Shown: positions 17,739 to 55,153, numbered from the stretch's first letter. The stretch is DNA of 64,000 bases from a bacterium (GCA_030550015.1 JAUQQG010000053.1:1-64000), one strand, 5' to 3'. Program-made: numbers and translations. The notes: a model not told the origin generated them from the letters alone.

Positions 17739-18713
17739 GTGAGGTACTTCCGCCACAGGTTCCTTCTCTCCCTTGTCCTGGGGGCTCTTCTGATGGTCAG
17801 CCTCTCCCCCGGGCTCGGGACTGCACAGGGGACGAAGCTCGTGATGGCGTTCGTCCCGTCGATGGAGGCACAGAGGGTTCTGGCCACCGGGGCAACGCTT
17901 GCCCGGATGATGGAGCTCTCCACTGGCTACAAGATCGAGGCCACAGTACCAACAAGTTATGCCGCAACCATCGAGGCGCTGTGTGCAAAGCGCGTGGACA
18001 TCGCTTGGCTCGCGCCATTTAGCTATGTGATTGCCAAAGCCAAGTGCAACGCCGATGTGCGCCTCATCACCGTTCGCTTTAACCTTCCCTACTACCGGAG
18101 CCAGATCATGGTGCGCGCGGACTCGGGGATTACCAAGATCGATCAGCTCAAGGGGAAGAAGTTTGCCTTCACCGACCCGGCTTCTACTTCCGGCTATCTC
18201 TTCCCTGCAGCGATGCTGAAGAAGCTCGGCTACGATCCTGATCGCTTCTTCAGCCAGAAGATCTTCGTGGGCTCTCACCCCAACGCGGTTCTGGCCGTCT
18301 ACCGGGGGCAGGTGGATGGAGCTGCTTCCTTTGAAGACGCCCGCCTCGCCGTGGCCAGGCAGTTCCCGGATGTGCTCGAGAAGGTCAAGGTCATCGCGTA
18401 TACCGATCCCATCCCCAACGACACGGTGAGCTTCGGGGCGCATGTGCCCGAGGAGGTCAAGCAAAAGATGACCAAGGCCCTTCTCCGCCTCTCCGCCACT
18501 CCCGCCGGCCAGGAGGAGCTCAAGAAGCTTTACGAAATTCAGAAGCTCGTGGACTACGAAACCCTGGTGACCACTACGTGGACGCAACCAGATGGGAAGC
18601 CCCTGCGCATTGACAGGAAGAAGGTTCCTAACCTGGATGCCTTCTTCCAGCCCATCCGGGATGTAGCCAAGTACCTGGGCATCGACCTGGAGGAGTTCAT
18701 CAAGCCGAGGTAA
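17739..18713 (+). CDS. phnD: PhnD-type phosphate/phosphonate/phosphite-binding lipoprotein or periplasmic protein
   Basis: A 324-residue solute-binding protein of the PhnD/PtxB family. A signal peptide covers about residues 1-30 (RHRFLLSLVLGALLMVSL), with an AQG cleavage-like end and no obvious lipobox cysteine. The segment VDIAWLAPFSYVIA, the TDPASTSGYLFPAAML motif and VDGAASFEDAR are typical of the family. It delivers an oxyanion such as phosphonate or phosphite to the PhnC/PhnE importer encoded next. GGAGGAGG lies directly upstream of the GTG start. No phosphonate-degrading gene is in the window, so the ligand is open. Confidence 0.87.
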   Translation: MRYFRHRFLLSLVLGALLMVSLSPGLGTAQGTKLVMAFVPSMEAQRVLATGATLARMMELSTGYKIEATVPTSYAATIEALCAKRVDIAWLAPFSYVIAKAKCNADVRLITVRFNLPYYRSQIMVRADSGITKIDQLKGKKFAFTDPASTSGYLFPAAMLKKLGYDPDRFFSQKIFVGSHPNAVLAVYRGQVDGAASFEDARLAVARQFPDVLEKVKVIAYTDPIPNDTVSFGAHVPEEVKQKMTKALLRLSATPAGQEELKKLYEIQKLVDYETLVTTTWTQPDGKPLRIDRKKVPNLDAFFQPIRDVAKYLGIDLEEFIKPR

Positions 18714-49608: not shown

Positions 49609-50484
49609 ATGCGGATTCAAATCGGTCCTTTGATTGTGACGGCTCTGGCAGTGATTGTGTTGCTCCTGATTGCCTTCCCTCCCACGGTGGATTTCTCCCG
49701 GGCGCAGGTAGGTCTCAACACGCCTCTCCCGTTGTCCAGGGGGGAGCAGCGCCTTGTCCCTGGTAAGCCCTCGGCGGTCCGCGGGGAGAAGGTCTTCCAG
49801 AAACAGTGCGCCCTGTGTCATGGTCCGGAGGGACGAGGGGATGGTCCTGCGGCGAGCAAATTGGTGACGCCGGGGCGTAGCCTCCTCACCGATTTCCTGG
49901 GGGTCTTCGGGATCAAGGTCAAAGCCGAGCAGTTGCCTTCCCGCCCGGCGAACTTCCACAACCTGGACGCCCAGCGGCTCAACTCCCCCTTCCTGAACTA
50001 TGAGACGGTCACGCTGGGTCGCCCGCATACAGCGATGCCCGCGTTCGGCCCGAGAGCACCTTATGGCGTCAACAAAGGCGCCATGTTGACCGATCAGGAG
50101 CGCTGGGATGTGGTCTTCTTTGAATGGGAGTTCCAAACCTCCGCGGAGCGCCTAGCGCGAGCCAAGGAGATCTACGAGAACCGGGTGATCGAAGGGAACA
50201 CTTGCGCAAGTTGCCACGGGGTTGCTGGGGACGGCCGAGGGCCGCGGGGTGCGGAGATGGCCGGGAAATTGTGGACGTGGGCGGCGGGACGAGGGCCAGG
50301 GATTTTCACCGACATCAACCACCTGGGCCAACGAAAGCCCTCCGACCTCTTCCAGGTGATCGAGGATGGGAGTCCCAACGGCTTGATGCCCTCGTACAAG
50401 GGGAAACTCTCCGAGGATGAGATGTGGATGCTTGTGGAGTATGTCTATACCTTCGTCTACGAACCGAAAGGGCAGGTGAAGTAA
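49609..50484 (+). CDS. Dihaem cytochrome c, membrane-anchored
   Basis: A 291-residue protein with an N-terminal hydrophobic anchor (about 8-26) and two c-type haem sites, C67-ALCH and C199-ASCH. The likely methionine ligands lie in AMPAFGP (first half) and GLMPSYKGKL (second half). Each half looks like a class I cytochrome c domain. It precedes the Rieske gene by 5 bp, so it should be the cytochrome c subunit that takes electrons from the Rieske centre. Its maturation proteins (ccmABCDE) are encoded directly upstream. Confidence 0.9.
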   Translation: MRIQIGPLIVTALAVIVLLLIAFPPTVDFSRAQVGLNTPLPLSRGEQRLVPGKPSAVRGEKVFQKQCALCHGPEGRGDGPAASKLVTPGRSLLTDFLGVFGIKVKAEQLPSRPANFHNLDAQRLNSPFLNYETVTLGRPHTAMPAFGPRAPYGVNKGAMLTDQERWDVVFFEWEFQTSAERLARAKEIYENRVIEGNTCASCHGVAGDGRGPRGAEMAGKLWTWAAGRGPGIFTDINHLGQRKPSDLFQVIEDGSPNGLMPSYKGKLSEDEMWMLVEYVYTFVYEPKGQVK

Positions 50485-50489
50485 AACGG

Positions 50490-51131
50490 ATGGAAGAGCG
50501 CGTCAACCGGAGGACGTTTCTCAAACTCCTTATGGGCGTGCCGGCTTTTGGTGCCATCGCAGCAGCGCTTTCCCCGTTGCTCCGGTACCTCAAGCCCAAT
50601 CTCCCACCCTATCAGCTGAACCCGCTGACCGTTGGGGACAAACCCCATGGATCCCCGGTAGTGGCGGCAACCCTCTCGGAGCTTCGGGAGCCCTGGAGTT
50701 ACAAGTACTTTACCTTCGTCCAGCAGTATCCCCAGTACACGCCTGAAGGGTTCAAGAACGCCACCGTTCCAGGGGTCGTCATCCGCCTCCCCCGGAAGGT
50801 TGTCCTTCCCTGGGAGTGGGCGGGCGAAAAGCGGAAGGAGAGCGATATCGTCGCCTTCTCGCGCATCTGTCCCCATCTCGGGTGCATCTTCAACTACGTT
50901 CCTGAGTGGAAGGAGATCACATCTGGGTATGGAGGCTATGTTCCGCCCCCGGATCGTCGCCATGCGCTCATGGGCTGCCCATGCCATCTCAGCATCTATG
51001 ATCCTGCCGATCCCGATGTCCCAGGGAGGGTCCTCTCCGGTCCAGCGCCGCGACCTCCTCGGACCTTCCTGTTTGCGGTGAAGGAGGGGGACATTGTCAT
51101 CACCGACGTGGAGCCCGGTGGGATCGCCTAG
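50490..51131 (+). CDS. Rieske iron-sulfur protein of a cytochrome b complex (Tat signal)
   Basis: A 213-residue Rieske protein. The N-terminus NRRTFLKLLMG followed by a hydrophobic stretch is a twin-arginine signal that also anchors the protein. The 2Fe-2S ligands and disulfide lie in C127-PHLGC132 and C163-PCH166. An insert of about 30 residues between the two boxes and a rather long segment at 60-95 are noticeable. It should accept electrons from quinol at the Qo site of the cytochrome b encoded next. tatA is encoded at 57423. Confidence 0.93.
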   Translation: MEERVNRRTFLKLLMGVPAFGAIAAALSPLLRYLKPNLPPYQLNPLTVGDKPHGSPVVAATLSELREPWSYKYFTFVQQYPQYTPEGFKNATVPGVVIRLPRKVVLPWEWAGEKRKESDIVAFSRICPHLGCIFNYVPEWKEITSGYGGYVPPPDRRHALMGCPCHLSIYDPADPDVPGRVLSGPAPRPPRTFLFAVKEGDIVITDVEPGGIA

Positions 51132-51175
51132 AGGATCCCCCGAGGCGTGAAAAGCTTCCCTAGTTAGGGAGGTGG

Positions 51176-52315
51176 ATGGGAAAGTTGGGAGTCGTTGGGG
51201 AATGGATCAAAGACCGGAAGGAACACCTCGATCTCTTTGACGAGACCAACGTCCATAGACAGGGGAATCCCTTTTATCTCCTCGGCCCGATGGTGTACTA
51301 CTTCTGGCTCATCACCATCGTGAGTGGTCTCCTCCTTATGATCTGGTACGAGCCCACCACTGCCGGTGCATACAACTCCATCCTGCACATCCAGCACGAG
51401 ATCCCTCTTGGCTGGTTGATCCGCGGCCTCCACAAGTACGGCGCTGATGCCTTGATCATCGCCATTACCCTGCGCATCTACCGTATGTACTTCCTGGGGG
51501 AGTACAAGAAGCCAGGGGAGCTCTCCTGGATGATCGCGTTCGCCTCGCTGATCCTGGCGATGATTTCTGGGATCACAGGCTATCTCCTCATCTGGAACCA
51601 GCGTGCCTTCTGGGCGGCCAAGGTCGTGCTCACGGTCCCCATCTACTTTGACGAGCTCCCCCTCATTGGGCAGACGAGGTTTGGTTCCGCTATCGCTTAC
51701 ATCTTCCTCGGGGGCCCGGCCATCGGCCAGGCAACCCTCACCAGGTTCTATATGATCCATTTCAGCATCTCTGTGATTGCCCTCATCCTCACGGAGATCT
51801 TCTTCCAGCGGACCCGGCGCAAGCGGTTGAATATGTCGCTTGCAAGTGTCCTGGTCTTCTTCCTCATGCTCGCCGCGATCAGCTACCTCCTCCCAGCGGA
51901 ACTGGGGAGGAGAGCTAACCCAGACCGGACGCCCCTTCCTATTCTCTCGGACTGGTACTTCCTGGCCCTCTACCAGTTCGTCAAGTACACGCCGCCCCTG
52001 TGGGCTGGTCTTGGGCCGGGGTTGCTCATCGCCTTCGGGATGCTTGTCCCCTTTCTGGATAGGAGCAAAGGGAGACGGCCTTCGGAGCGTCCCTTCTTTA
52101 CCGTGGTGGGGATCATGGCCCTCGTCTACTTCCTTGTGTTCACAGTCCTGATTCTGTTCAATATCGCTGTCATCGAGCGCGATCCACCAATCATCCTAGC
52201 CATCACCGTCGTGGTCCTTGCACTTGGACTCCTTTGGGAGATCCGCTACCGGAGGCGACAGCTTGGACAGCTCGTGTCTTCGCCGAAGCCTGCCGAGAAC
52301 CCGGCCTCGGAGTAG
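51176..52315 (+). CDS. Cytochrome b (first of two), fused b6-IV type, lacking haem bH ligands
   Basis: A 379-residue cytochrome b with about eight helices. His86 (GLHKYGAD, helix B) and His195 (MIHFSIS, helix D) match the two haem bL ligands. The haem bH positions are not histidine: residue 100 is Arg (TLRIYRMY) and there is no His in the rest of helix D (Phe209/Phe210). Cys35 of b6-type haem ci is also absent. The Qo motif reads S258-D-W-Y261, close to PEWY/PDWY. It should still form a Qo site but cannot pass electrons to a normal haem bH. GGGAGG precedes the ATG. Confidence 0.88.
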   Translation: MGKLGVVGEWIKDRKEHLDLFDETNVHRQGNPFYLLGPMVYYFWLITIVSGLLLMIWYEPTTAGAYNSILHIQHEIPLGWLIRGLHKYGADALIIAITLRIYRMYFLGEYKKPGELSWMIAFASLILAMISGITGYLLIWNQRAFWAAKVVLTVPIYFDELPLIGQTRFGSAIAYIFLGGPAIGQATLTRFYMIHFSISVIALILTEIFFQRTRRKRLNMSLASVLVFFLMLAAISYLLPAELGRRANPDRTPLPILSDWYFLALYQFVKYTPPLWAGLGPGLLIAFGMLVPFLDRSKGRRPSERPFFTVVGIMALVYFLVFTVLILFNIAVIERDPPIILAITVVVLALGLLWEIRYRRRQLGQLVSSPKPAENPASE

Positions 52316-52339
52316 CGTAGGTCGTCCAGAGAAAACCCC

Positions 52340-52368
52340 TTGAACGATGGTGCGGTTGTGTCTATGAT
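52340..52368 (+). promoter_or_regulatory. Sigma-70-type promoter inside the cytochrome complex locus
   Basis: TTGAAC and TATGAT with a 17-bp spacer, 24 bp upstream of the first small membrane gene. It separates the cytochrome c/Rieske/cytochrome b1 genes from the cytochrome b2-ferredoxin part and would allow them to be expressed differently. Confidence 0.55.
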
Positions 52369-52391
52369 GGGGGGAGGATAGGGGAGCAAAG

Positions 52392-52652
52392 ATGTGGCGG
52401 CATCTATGGTTTTATCTCACCTTCCTGATTGCTGTTCTCGCCCTTTCTCGACTGATCGGGGCAGTGGAGGAGGCGCTGGCGAGAGGGACTGTCCAAGCAT
52501 GGGCACGTGCAGCAATCGTTGTCGCCGCCCTTTTTGTTTCCTTCCTGTACCTGGGGTTTACCCTCTACGAAGTAGATCGCAGGGCTGGAAGGGTGCGACG
52601 GCCCCTCCGGCTGTATGAGTGGTGGATCCGGGCTCGGGGAACGCAGAGGTAA
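52392..52652 (+). CDS. Small two-helix membrane protein of the cytochrome b locus
   Basis: An 86-residue protein with two hydrophobic helices (about 5-25 and 38-60) and a basic C-terminal tail. I do not recognise a family. It starts a group of three genes ending with the cytochrome b-ferredoxin fusion, which suggests an accessory subunit of that complex. Confidence 0.65.
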   Translation: MWRHLWFYLTFLIAVLALSRLIGAVEEALARGTVQAWARAAIVVAALFVSFLYLGFTLYEVDRRAGRVRRPLRLYEWWIRARGTQR

Positions 52653-52656
52653 GGAG

Positions 52657-52845
52657 ATGACGCAGGGGAAGCTGTTGGGTCTGATCCTGGTGCTGTCTGC
52701 GATCGTCGCCGCCGCGAGCGGGGCGATTGTCTACGGGGAGTTCTCCAGAAAGCAGCTCGTTGTCGGAGCCTCCCTTGGGATCATCTTCTTGGCCTATGGA
52801 TTGATCCTGATCATTCTCCGGAAGGGGCGATGGATCCAGGAGTGA
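52657..52845 (+). CDS. Small two-helix membrane protein of the cytochrome b locus
   Basis: A 62-residue protein with two hydrophobic helices separated by GEFSRKQLVVG. The ATG at 52657 has AAGGAG in front; an upstream in-frame ATG at 52615 lies inside the previous gene. No family is recognised. It is probably a small subunit or assembly factor of the neighbouring cytochrome b complex. Confidence 0.6.
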   Translation: MTQGKLLGLILVLSAIVAAASGAIVYGEFSRKQLVVGASLGIIFLAYGLILIILRKGRWIQE

Positions 52846-52909
52846 GGTTGCGAATGCCCCGTACCGGGCCCCGCGGCAATCTGGCACAGCACGAAGGAGG
52901 AAAGGGAGG

Positions 52910-54067
52910 TTGTACAAGCGCATCCTGAAGAACTTGCAGCGAGCCACCCTCCAAGTGGATGTCCTGCTCAACCGCGTTCTGCCTTCTGATTGGAACCCGT
53001 TGTATTACACTGGAGGGCTGTCGAACCTCTTCCTGACCATCCTGATCCTTTCAGGGATCTTTCTCTTCTTCTACTACGTGCCGGATCCCAACGAGGCCCA
53101 CCGCTCCATCACCTTCATCACGGAGCGCGTCCCGTACGGGAGGATCATCCGCGGGGTTCACCGCTATGCCGCCGATGGGTTCATGGTAGCGATTTTCCTC
53201 CACCTTTTCCGGAACTGGTTCACGGAGCGTTACCTTTTCTCCCGGGATATCCCCTGGATCTCCGGGATGTTCCTCCTTGGCTTCGCTGGGTTCGTGGGAA
53301 TCACCGGATACTTCATGGCGTGGGACGACCGGGCGCAGGCCCTCCTGGCAATGACCCTGCATATGCTTCGGTCGATCCCGCTTGTTGGCCCGTGGCTCAA
53401 CGAGCTCCTCCTGGGAGGAGGGGGAGTCGGCGAACGCACCCTCGTGCGTTTTCTCTTCCTCCACGTGGTCCCCGCCGTGACCCTCTACCTCCTGCTCTGG
53501 TGGCATTATATCCGCATCCGTCACCCCAAAATCTGGCCACCGGCGGTCTGGGTGCTGTTCAGCCTGGGGCTTGTCTTTCTCCTCAGTTCCCTCGTGCCTG
53601 TGGTGAGCGGGGTGCCCGCCTCCCCCACGGCACAGCCGCAGGTGATCCCCCTCGACTTCTTATATATGTGGCCTTACTGGTTGCTGAAGTACGTTGGACC
53701 GATCTGGGCGATCGTGCTCGGGTTCGTCCTGTTCAGTTATGGAATGTACATCCCTTACCAACTCCGGGAGAAGCCGGAGGTCATGGGCGTCCGTCACGCA
53801 GGGGTAGCCCAGGTCATTGAGCCGAACTGCACGGGATGCGAGCTTTGTTACTATGACTGCCCCTACAACGCGATCATCATGGTCCCCTCGCCAAGGCCTG
53901 GGCAGACCAAAGCAGCGCAGAACCGCAAGCTGCTTGCCGTGGTGATTGAGTCGCGGTGCGTAGAATGCGGCATCTGCATTGGCGCTTGCCCGTTCCAGGC
54001 TTTAGAACTCCCTCGTTTGATGGAGAATCAAGTGCTTGAAAGGGTGCTGGCAGCATGTCGGAGCTAG
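52910..54067 (+). CDS. Cytochrome b (second of two) fused to a C-terminal 2[4Fe-4S] ferredoxin
   Basis: A 385-residue fusion. The cytochrome b part keeps all four haem histidines: His84 and His98 in helix B, His185 and His199 in helix D (14-residue spacing). The Qo motif is degraded; the PEWY region reads P247-L-D-F-L-Y. The C-terminal domain holds two ferredoxin motifs, C307/C310/C313/C317 and C350/C353/C356/C360. The iron-sulfur domain would face the cytoplasm if helix count is as in cytochrome b. The TTG start has GAAGGAGG 9 bp upstream. It overlaps the MvhD-like gene by 13 bp. Confidence 0.88.
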   Translation: MYKRILKNLQRATLQVDVLLNRVLPSDWNPLYYTGGLSNLFLTILILSGIFLFFYYVPDPNEAHRSITFITERVPYGRIIRGVHRYAADGFMVAIFLHLFRNWFTERYLFSRDIPWISGMFLLGFAGFVGITGYFMAWDDRAQALLAMTLHMLRSIPLVGPWLNELLLGGGGVGERTLVRFLFLHVVPAVTLYLLLWWHYIRIRHPKIWPPAVWVLFSLGLVFLLSSLVPVVSGVPASPTAQPQVIPLDFLYMWPYWLLKYVGPIWAIVLGFVLFSYGMYIPYQLREKPEVMGVRHAGVAQVIEPNCTGCELCYYDCPYNAIIMVPSPRPGQTKAAQNRKLLAVVIESRCVECGICIGACPFQALELPRLMENQVLERVLAACRS

Positions 54068-54543
54068 AGCACAGTTCCTCTCTGCAATCCCAGGAAAAGC
54101 CCACCCTGAAGGTGGTAGGGTTTGTCTGCGACTGGAGCGTGGATCTCAAAGGTGCGCTCACGGAGGACGGGAGGCTCCGGGAGGTTCCGAACGTCTACGT
54201 GATGATGATCCCCTGTTCGGGGTTCATCCGGCCCTCCTGGCTGGAGTTCGCCCTGAAGAACGGAGCTGACGGAGTGTTTGTCTGCGGGTGCCCGTATGGG
54301 GACTGCCTGAACCGGGAGGGGAATTTTCTCATCAGGAACAGGATCCAGCAGATGCGCCGCCGCCTCCAGCGTCAGAGGATCGATCCAGAGCGGGTAACGA
54401 TGCTGGCTTATGGGCTGCATGATCGGGAGGGATTCCTCTTGGCGATCAAGGCTTTCCTGGAGGATCTGCGCAGGCGGGTCGTGCCAGGAGGCCAGGCGGT
54501 GACGAGGGCCGCTCAGCAAAGCAGCCCCAACGAAATCTCTTGA
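54055..54543 (+). CDS. MvhD-like iron-sulfur protein (hydrogenase/heterodisulfide-reductase-associated family)
   Basis: A 162-residue protein of the MvhD/FlpD family. Family motifs are VGFVCDWS near the N-terminus, MMIPCSGFIRPSWL, GADGVFVCGCPYGDC and REGNFLIRNR. MvhD carries a 2Fe-2S cluster and passes electrons between hydrogenase or formate dehydrogenase and HdrA. The usual N-terminal CCNWCS is reduced to a single Cys (VCDWS). Translation overlaps the cytochrome b-ferredoxin fusion, so it is likely its soluble redox partner. No hdr or mvh genes are in the window. Confidence 0.82.
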   Translation: MSELEHSSSLQSQEKPTLKVVGFVCDWSVDLKGALTEDGRLREVPNVYVMMIPCSGFIRPSWLEFALKNGADGVFVCGCPYGDCLNREGNFLIRNRIQQMRRRLQRQRIDPERVTMLAYGLHDREGFLLAIKAFLEDLRRRVVPGGQAVTRAAQQSSPNEIS

Positions 54544-54621
54544 CAAGGTTCCGCTGGGGACAACGTCAAGGGGCGTCCTTTCAACCGTCGAGCATTATAA
54601 TAATGGAAAGTACCCTAGGTG

Positions 54622-54738
54622 ATGGAGATGATCCGGCGGAAGAGTGTAGGGACGATCTTGGCTTATGCCCTTTTCTACATCGTGTTCTTCGCCCTCCTCT
54701 TGCTCGTGGCCTCGTTTGGGCTCATCGCCGAAGCTTGA
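54622..54738 (+). CDS. 38-residue single-helix membrane protein
   Basis: A tiny gene starting ATGGAGATGATCCGG; ATG 54628 is an alternative giving 36 residues. The product has a basic N-terminus (MIRRKS) and one helix (TILAYALFYIVFFALLLLVA). It follows a TATAAT box at 54596-54601 and precedes the cupredoxin gene. Its size and shape resemble small subunits of oxidases or bc-type complexes (for example subunit IIa), but nothing more specific can be said. A ribosome site is weak. Confidence 0.5.
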   Translation: MEMIRRKSVGTILAYALFYIVFFALLLLVASFGLIAEA

Positions 54739-54781: not shown

Positions 54782-55153
54782 ATGCGATTTGTTCGCGCCA
54801 CGATCCTCGCTGTCGCCGCCCTTGTGCTGCTCGCAGCCTGCGCACGCCAGCAGGCCCAGCCACCTGCCCCAGCACCATCGGCAGCGGGTGAGATCGCGAT
54901 TACCGAGAACGAGTGGTCGATCCAACCGAAGGAGATCCGTGCAAAACCAGGGAAGGTTACCTTTGTGATCAAGAACCAGGGCGCCGTAGAGCACAACTTC
55001 GTGATCGAAGGAGTTGGGGAGGTCGACAAGATTGCGCCGGGGGAGACGAAGAAGCTGGAGGTGACTCTCCAACCGGGGACCTACAAGGTTGTGTGTAATC
55101 TCCCCGGTCACCAGGAAGCTGGCATGGAGGCCACACTCACCGTCTCAGAGTGA
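54782..55153 (+). CDS. Cupredoxin lipoprotein (plastocyanin/azurin-like)
   Basis: A 123-residue lipoprotein. The lipobox LLAAC gives a lipidated Cys at residue 20, followed by an Ala/Pro/Gln-rich linker. The copper ligands are visible: His in VEHNFVIEG, then Cys, His and Met in VVCNLPGHQEAGM. This is a type I blue-copper site. It may carry electrons from the dihaem cytochrome or Rieske complex to a terminal acceptor outside this window. GAAAGGAGG precedes the ATG. Confidence 0.9.
   Translation: MRFVRATILAVAALVLLAACARQQAQPPAPAPSAAGEIAITENEWSIQPKEIRAKPGKVTFVIKNQGAVEHNFVIEGVGEVDKIAPGETKKLEVTLQPGTYKVVCNLPGHQEAGMEATLTVSE

Follow-up and report, generated by a model that had tools for sequence, protein, structure and literature searches.

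An operon of Sysuimicrobiota encoding one Rieske protein and two complementary cytochromes b, predicted to form an asymmetric quinol-oxidizing complex

Introduction

Cytochrome bc1 and b6f complexes are homodimers in which a single cytochrome b bears the motif of the quinol oxidation (Qo) site and both haem sites, the low-potential bL and the high-potential bH, and works with a Rieske iron-sulfur protein. In bc1 dimers the two bL haems lie close together. Here we describe an operon in a 64,000-nucleotide stretch of bacterial DNA (GCA_030550015.1 JAUQQG010000053.1:1-64000, hereafter the window) that encodes one Rieske protein together with two unlike cytochromes b, b1 and b2, and we propose, with a probability of about 0.6, that its products assemble into an asymmetric Rieske/cytochrome b complex built around a heterodimer of b1 and b2. 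We take the host phylum to be Sysuimicrobiota (CSP1-3), a name assigned from the record titles of b2 relatives (Armatimonadetes, ANGP1, HRbin32) and from general knowledge. The nearest functional analog is man-made: in B-B fusions of Rhodobacter bc1, which paired a G158W half with an H212N half, electrons crossed from bL to bL at a catalytic time scale when one half had its Qo switched off and the other its bH (PMC4330944). Both this crossing and its purpose have so far been argued from engineered mutants.

Two further systems resemble the iron-sulfur parts of the operon. The Qmo complex of sulfate reducers, like the arm of b2 described below, connects a membrane cytochrome b, at the quinone pool, with iron-sulfur parts of the Hdr/MvhD type, but QmoC belongs to another cytochrome b family, and Qmo has neither a Rieske protein nor a Qo motif. 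In the HdrA2/HdrABC-MvhD systems of methanogens, a ferredoxin domain with conserved cysteines is followed by MvhD, the point of electron entry in HdrABC; known MvhD proteins are fed by hydrogenase or formate dehydrogenase (PMC6019823). We found no description, among the open-access papers searched, of a natural cytochrome bc that is heterodimeric or lacks bH, nor of a cytochrome b-MvhD complex, and the paper describing the phylum Sysuimicrobiota makes no mention of a bc complex (PMC11604079).

Results

Gene content of the operon

The locus comprises:

49609..50484, + strand: dihaem cytochrome c, two CxxCH motifs and an N-terminal membrane anchor (PF00034/PF13442); first gene of the operon
50490..51131, + strand: divergent Rieske [2Fe-2S] protein with a Tat-type RR signal (PF00355, 20.6 bits versus a cut-off of 20.3)
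51176..52315, + strand: cytochrome b1, the Qo half, with SDWY, a b6-like cd1 helix, haem bL only and Arg100 at the bH ligand position
52392..52652, + strand: small membrane protein s1, two hydrophobic segments, no family match
52657..52845, + strand: small membrane protein s2, two hydrophobic segments, no family match
52910..54067, + strand: cytochrome b2-ferredoxin, six helices, four haem histidines, a degraded Qo motif and a C-terminal 2x[4Fe-4S] domain
54055..54543, + strand: MvhD/FlpD-type [2Fe-2S] protein (PF02662), overlapping b2 by 13 bases
54619..54738, + strand: possible tiny membrane protein of 39 amino acids with a GTG start, known as an open reading frame alone
54782..55153, + strand: cupredoxin lipoprotein with an LAAC lipobox (PF13473/PF00127)

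The original prediction, made from the window alone, had named these genes from cytochrome c to cupredoxin, and all were confirmed in place and in that order. Its internal promoter at position 52340 did not hold up, as the scan returned 2 sites versus 1.5 +/- 1.1 in shuffled sequence, which is not above chance. The operon shares with bc1 and b6f a Rieske protein whose [2Fe-2S] ligands are intact (CxHxGC and CPCH, present without exception in 30/30 sequences), a cytochrome b fold that has bL and Qo, and a c-type acceptor encoded alongside, the dihaem cytochrome c, both of whose CxxCH motifs are likewise invariant (30/30). This cytochrome c is the likely acceptor of the Rieske protein, and the cupredoxin, which lies downstream in many relatives and is absent from others, a possible soluble acceptor. 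Unlike in bc1 and b6f, no single cytochrome b of the operon combines a Qo motif with both haem sites.

Complementary losses in b1 and b2

Cytochrome b1 aligns best to b6 plus subunit IV. It has the full bc1-like set of predicted helices, a cd1 helix with the b6-like pattern QxxFWA, and a near-canonical Qo motif (SDWY in place of PEWY; ADWY in two loci of another phylum, L157 and L158). The bL ligands H86 and H195, which are the first histidines of helices B and D, are conserved without exception (32/32 sequences). The bH ligands are missing: the position in helix B is held by an invariant arginine (R100), retained also in the second phylum, and helix D has no second histidine. When aligned to solved b6, the helix B bH ligand faces Arg100 in b1 and His98 in b2. 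Within the aligned Sysuimicrobiota set E207 is invariant too and, like R100, lies in the empty bH pocket or close to it; from this pattern, a buried R100-E207 pair may fill that pocket. In a direct comparison, the phylum's canonical cytochromes b have four histidines and PEWY. A second, canonical cytochrome b/Rieske locus occurs in the window's genome, beside a nine-haem cytochrome c (L056:6052-9174; G000:C112).

Cytochrome b2 has kept what b1 lost. Its haem ligands H84, H98, H185 and H199 and eight ferredoxin cysteines are all invariant (31/31), and its Qo region is degraded (LDFL in the window), the acidic residue, Asp, alone being nearly constant; the QxxFWA pattern shared by b1 and b6 is lost. 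The description of the two proteins in the original prediction, b1 with a near-canonical Qo motif and no bH ligands, b2 with four haem histidines, a degraded Qo motif and an iron-sulfur tail, is thus confirmed.

The six predicted membrane helices of b2 end on the bH side, where the ferredoxin domain begins, which by analogy places the 2x[4Fe-4S] domain, as a prediction, on the cytoplasmic side beside bH. The b2 tail and MvhD together form a contiguous match to HdrA2 571-769 (model NF040770: 571-640 and 642-769), and the MvhD cysteines C25, C54, C79 and C84 are invariant. Unlike in HdrA2, a membrane cytochrome b takes the place of the flavin-bearing HdrA body; neither that body nor HdrB/HdrC partners are encoded in the operon. 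The operon MvhD is the sole FlpD-family protein in most genomes of the phylum, for which reason we rejected as unlikely its sharing with HdrABC or hydrogenase. The window's genome itself has an HdrA-MvhD-type and other Hdr-like clusters elsewhere (L160:87-3485 and L161:82-8578; G000:C125).

Conservation and linkage of the pair

In our genome sample, which is almost entirely metagenome-assembled, the operon is present in all seven families of Sysuimicrobiota. Conservation spans 22 genera and a second phylum, which excludes chance. Cytochrome b1 was found in 39 of the 43 Sysuimicrobiota genomes, once as an end fragment, and 37 of the 43 gave a b2 match over all or almost all of its length. In every case b1 is accompanied by b2, except where the contig breaks off at b1 (G004, locus L054; and G019, whose contig of 18,105 bases ends just after b1 does, at 18,103). 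The original prediction had called for a search for co-occurrence and conserved order, and the full order of cytochrome c, Rieske, b1, small proteins, b2 and MvhD was seen in 26 fetched loci and the window; the remaining fetched Sysuimicrobiota loci are interrupted by contig ends. Each of the 28 loci checked has a pair of small hydrophobic proteins between b1 and b2, replaced in a few loci by longer reading frames.

Among 343 genomes outside the phylum, a single high-scoring b1 was found, in G151. The candidate from G243 was rejected, being a canonical cytochrome b with all four histidines. The G151 operon is identical in layout, including the two small membrane proteins; in that other phylum the colinear order is seen at locus L145. 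The cytochromes b of the other-phylum operon are 42-44% identical to ours, and the identical ligand losses of b1 and b2 recur in both phyla. Two relatives of G151 have a b1-b2-MvhD operon with extra dihaem cytochromes c (G387, L157:45-5122; G386, L158:2-5535). No Rieske protein was found in G386 or G387 by genome-wide search with Pfam or an operon-specific profile, and b1, b2 and MvhD are still together there, with overlapping ends.

In a tree of cytochrome b domains, b1 forms one clade over both phyla (99/93), apart from canonical, b2 and fused types, so that b1 and b2 are not recent duplicates; clade support is weak for b2 (61/77) and for the fused type (57/62).

Relatives of b2 fused to MvhD

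Deltaproteobacterial and other genomes (L087:4414-9488, L141, L142-L144, L146-L152) encode a cytochrome b-ferredoxin-MvhD protein with the same three modules in the same order as b2 and MvhD, and with four haem histidines. Unlike the products of our operon, it is one polypeptide, stands without b1 or Rieske protein, and adjoins a six-histidine haem-copper oxidase, a CoxII-like protein and SCO1. Since this natural fusion of equivalent modules exists, b2 and MvhD are expected to touch. On whether the two cytochromes b occur independently, which the original prediction had raised against itself, the answer is divided: b1 was never seen without b2, contig ends aside, but the b2 type fused to MvhD does occur without b1.

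Structure modelling

Because b1 and b2 share one reading frame, we modelled a read-through chain, b1-linker-b2, with AlphaFold, the disordered linker having about 185 residues. Its predicted template modelling score (pTM) was 0.67, compared with 0.51 for a control chain of unrelated proteins (CcmC-linker-cytochrome c), for which about 0.40 is expected if the domains float. Our own estimate put the b1-b2 chain at 0.39-0.48 if its halves float and at about 0.6-0.7 if they have a defined placement. As the control scored above expectation, the model is suggestive of b1-b2 pairing but not decisive. Foldseek with the read-through model recovered single cytochrome b chains and nothing else.

Association with aerobic respiration

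Sixteen genomes (G001-G003, G007, G013, G020-G022, G035-G042) encode no cytochrome b other than b1 and b2. COX1 is present in 38 of the 43 genomes and in none of the four without b1/b2 (Fisher p = 4e-5, a value that ignores kinship, those four being one genus). Because the pair supplies the sole cytochromes b of 16 genomes, and genomes without it also have no COX1, it is most likely the bc complex of aerobic respiration, and nearly all aerobic Sysuimicrobiota appear to build this complex from two unlike cytochromes b. As judged from its genes, the window's genome probably makes menaquinone via the futalosine route, by two genes of the MqnA/MqnD family.

Discussion

The pairing of b1 with b2, first put forward in the original prediction, is strongly supported by their complementary and invariant ligands, the ligand losses shared by two phyla, the dependence of b1 on b2, the colinear order, and their status as sole cytochromes b. 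In the complex that we propose, quinol would be oxidized solely at the Qo site of b1. The first electron would pass through the Rieske centre to the dihaem cytochrome c and on to the cupredoxin. The low-potential electron would arrive on bL of b1 and, with no bH there, would have to pass over to bL in the b2 half of the dimer and from there to bH of b2, where quinone would most likely be reduced at a quinone reduction (Qi)-type site, closing the Q cycle across the dimer. We propose that this bL-bL transfer is obligatory, because b1 alone has no exit from bL and because the division between b1 and b2 is that of the engineered bc1, one half having Qo without bH and its partner having bH with an impaired Qo (PMC4330944). 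The two differ in that ours would be built from two divergent natural genes with an iron-sulfur arm, theirs from point mutants of one protein. The [4Fe-4S]2 domain and MvhD on the b2 side would form a cytoplasmic port through which bH exchanges electrons with a soluble partner. Electrons could pass through this arm in either direction; we favour input from a cytosolic reductant, which is energetically easier.

Several points weigh against this proposal. The b1-b2 contact is a prediction from sequence comparison and a computed model; the read-through model was judged by its pTM, and its control is no clean baseline. The Qo motif of b1 is SDWY and not PEWY, and both the Qi-type site of b2 and the cytosolic partner of MvhD are putative. 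Finally, b2-type proteins exist without b1 in other phyla.

This last point bears on the most serious alternative, which we nevertheless consider unlikely, that two separate homodimeric complexes are co-encoded: a b1/Rieske quinol oxidase that delivers both electrons on the p side, and a b2-ferredoxin-MvhD module acting as a quinone-linked dehydrogenase. The existence of the latter as a stand-alone polypeptide without b1 or Rieske protein speaks for it, as does the origin of b1 and b2 from different cytochrome b lineages. However, electrons on bL of a b1 homodimer would have nowhere to go, the absence of bH from b1 goes with the presence of b2 in two phyla, and b1 is never without b2, whereas the Rieske gene can be absent.

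Improbable, in our view, is a heterodimer that exports the low-potential electron through the ferredoxin domain and MvhD to a low-potential cytosolic acceptor, that is, quinol-based bifurcation. The invariant ligands allow an unbroken chain bL-bL-bH-[4Fe-4S]2-[2Fe-2S] to be traced, and the arm resembles that of the bifurcating HdrA2. The energetics are against it. A Rieske centre has a potential of about +150 mV. For menaquinone a value of about -80 mV has been quoted (PMC4683180). With these two potentials export to ferredoxin is thermodynamically hard: the second electron would hardly fall below about -310 mV, and would have the membrane potential to climb as well. Nor is an HdrABC-type acceptor at hand, MvhD being the only protein of its family in most genomes. 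The output to ferredoxin/MvhD envisaged in the original prediction is therefore unsupported, and since ferredoxin potentials are hardly reachable from a menaquinol-driven Qo site, a Q cycle via b2 or input from the cytosol is likelier than export.

We give similarly little weight to confurcation or reverse use as the main task, with a cytosolic reductant feeding MvhD, the ferredoxin domain and b2, and quinone being reduced jointly with electrons from b1, or reverse electron flow being driven. Flow from cytosol to quinone is downhill, the fused relatives adjoin haem-copper oxidases that need electrons, and known MvhD proteins take theirs from hydrogenase or formate dehydrogenase (PMC6019823). 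Yet the operon has no conserved soluble dehydrogenase, its soluble partner being a presumption, and the pair is the sole bc complex of 16 genomes. That b1 is simply a decayed cytochrome b beside an ordinary bc complex of b2 homodimers, which have all four haem histidines, is very improbable, as it is b1 and not b2 that kept the Qo motif, and b1 is retained everywhere and no less conserved than b2 (71% versus 68% mean column identity).

Whether the b1/b2 complex amounts to the full picture is, to us, an evenly balanced question: a natural heterodimeric bc complex in two phyla, each half having lost the site that the other keeps, with obligatory bL-bL transfer and an HdrA2-type arm to the cytosol, and free of Rieske protein in G386 and G387. 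If so, an enzyme in which dimer crossing is the only exit would show a biological use for it and offer a natural system in which to measure it. We know of no other bc complex with a built-in cytosolic iron-sulfur port, which would join the quinone cycle to the Hdr/MvhD world. Since at least 16 Sysuimicrobiota genomes have no other bc complex, b1/b2 would shape how most of this uncultured phylum respires.

Genomic setting and minor observations

The window comes from a genome of 2.65 Mb that is 94% complete. The operon has as neighbours bshB1/bshC, ccmABCDE, a polyprenyl synthase gene, tatA, radC and mreB. The haem-copper oxidase beside the fused cytochrome b-ferredoxin-MvhD proteins is unusual around helix VI, with GHxSQQIN and without the usual HPEVY tyrosine; these loci are possibly an undescribed oxidase or nitric oxide reductase system with a cytosolic electron inlet. 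In families f6 and f7 and in genome G012, mvhD is followed by a gene for a degenerate protein of the COX1 fold without haem-binding histidines (L048:4188-5576, - strand; L053:7577-8986, + strand; L030:2829-4277, + strand).

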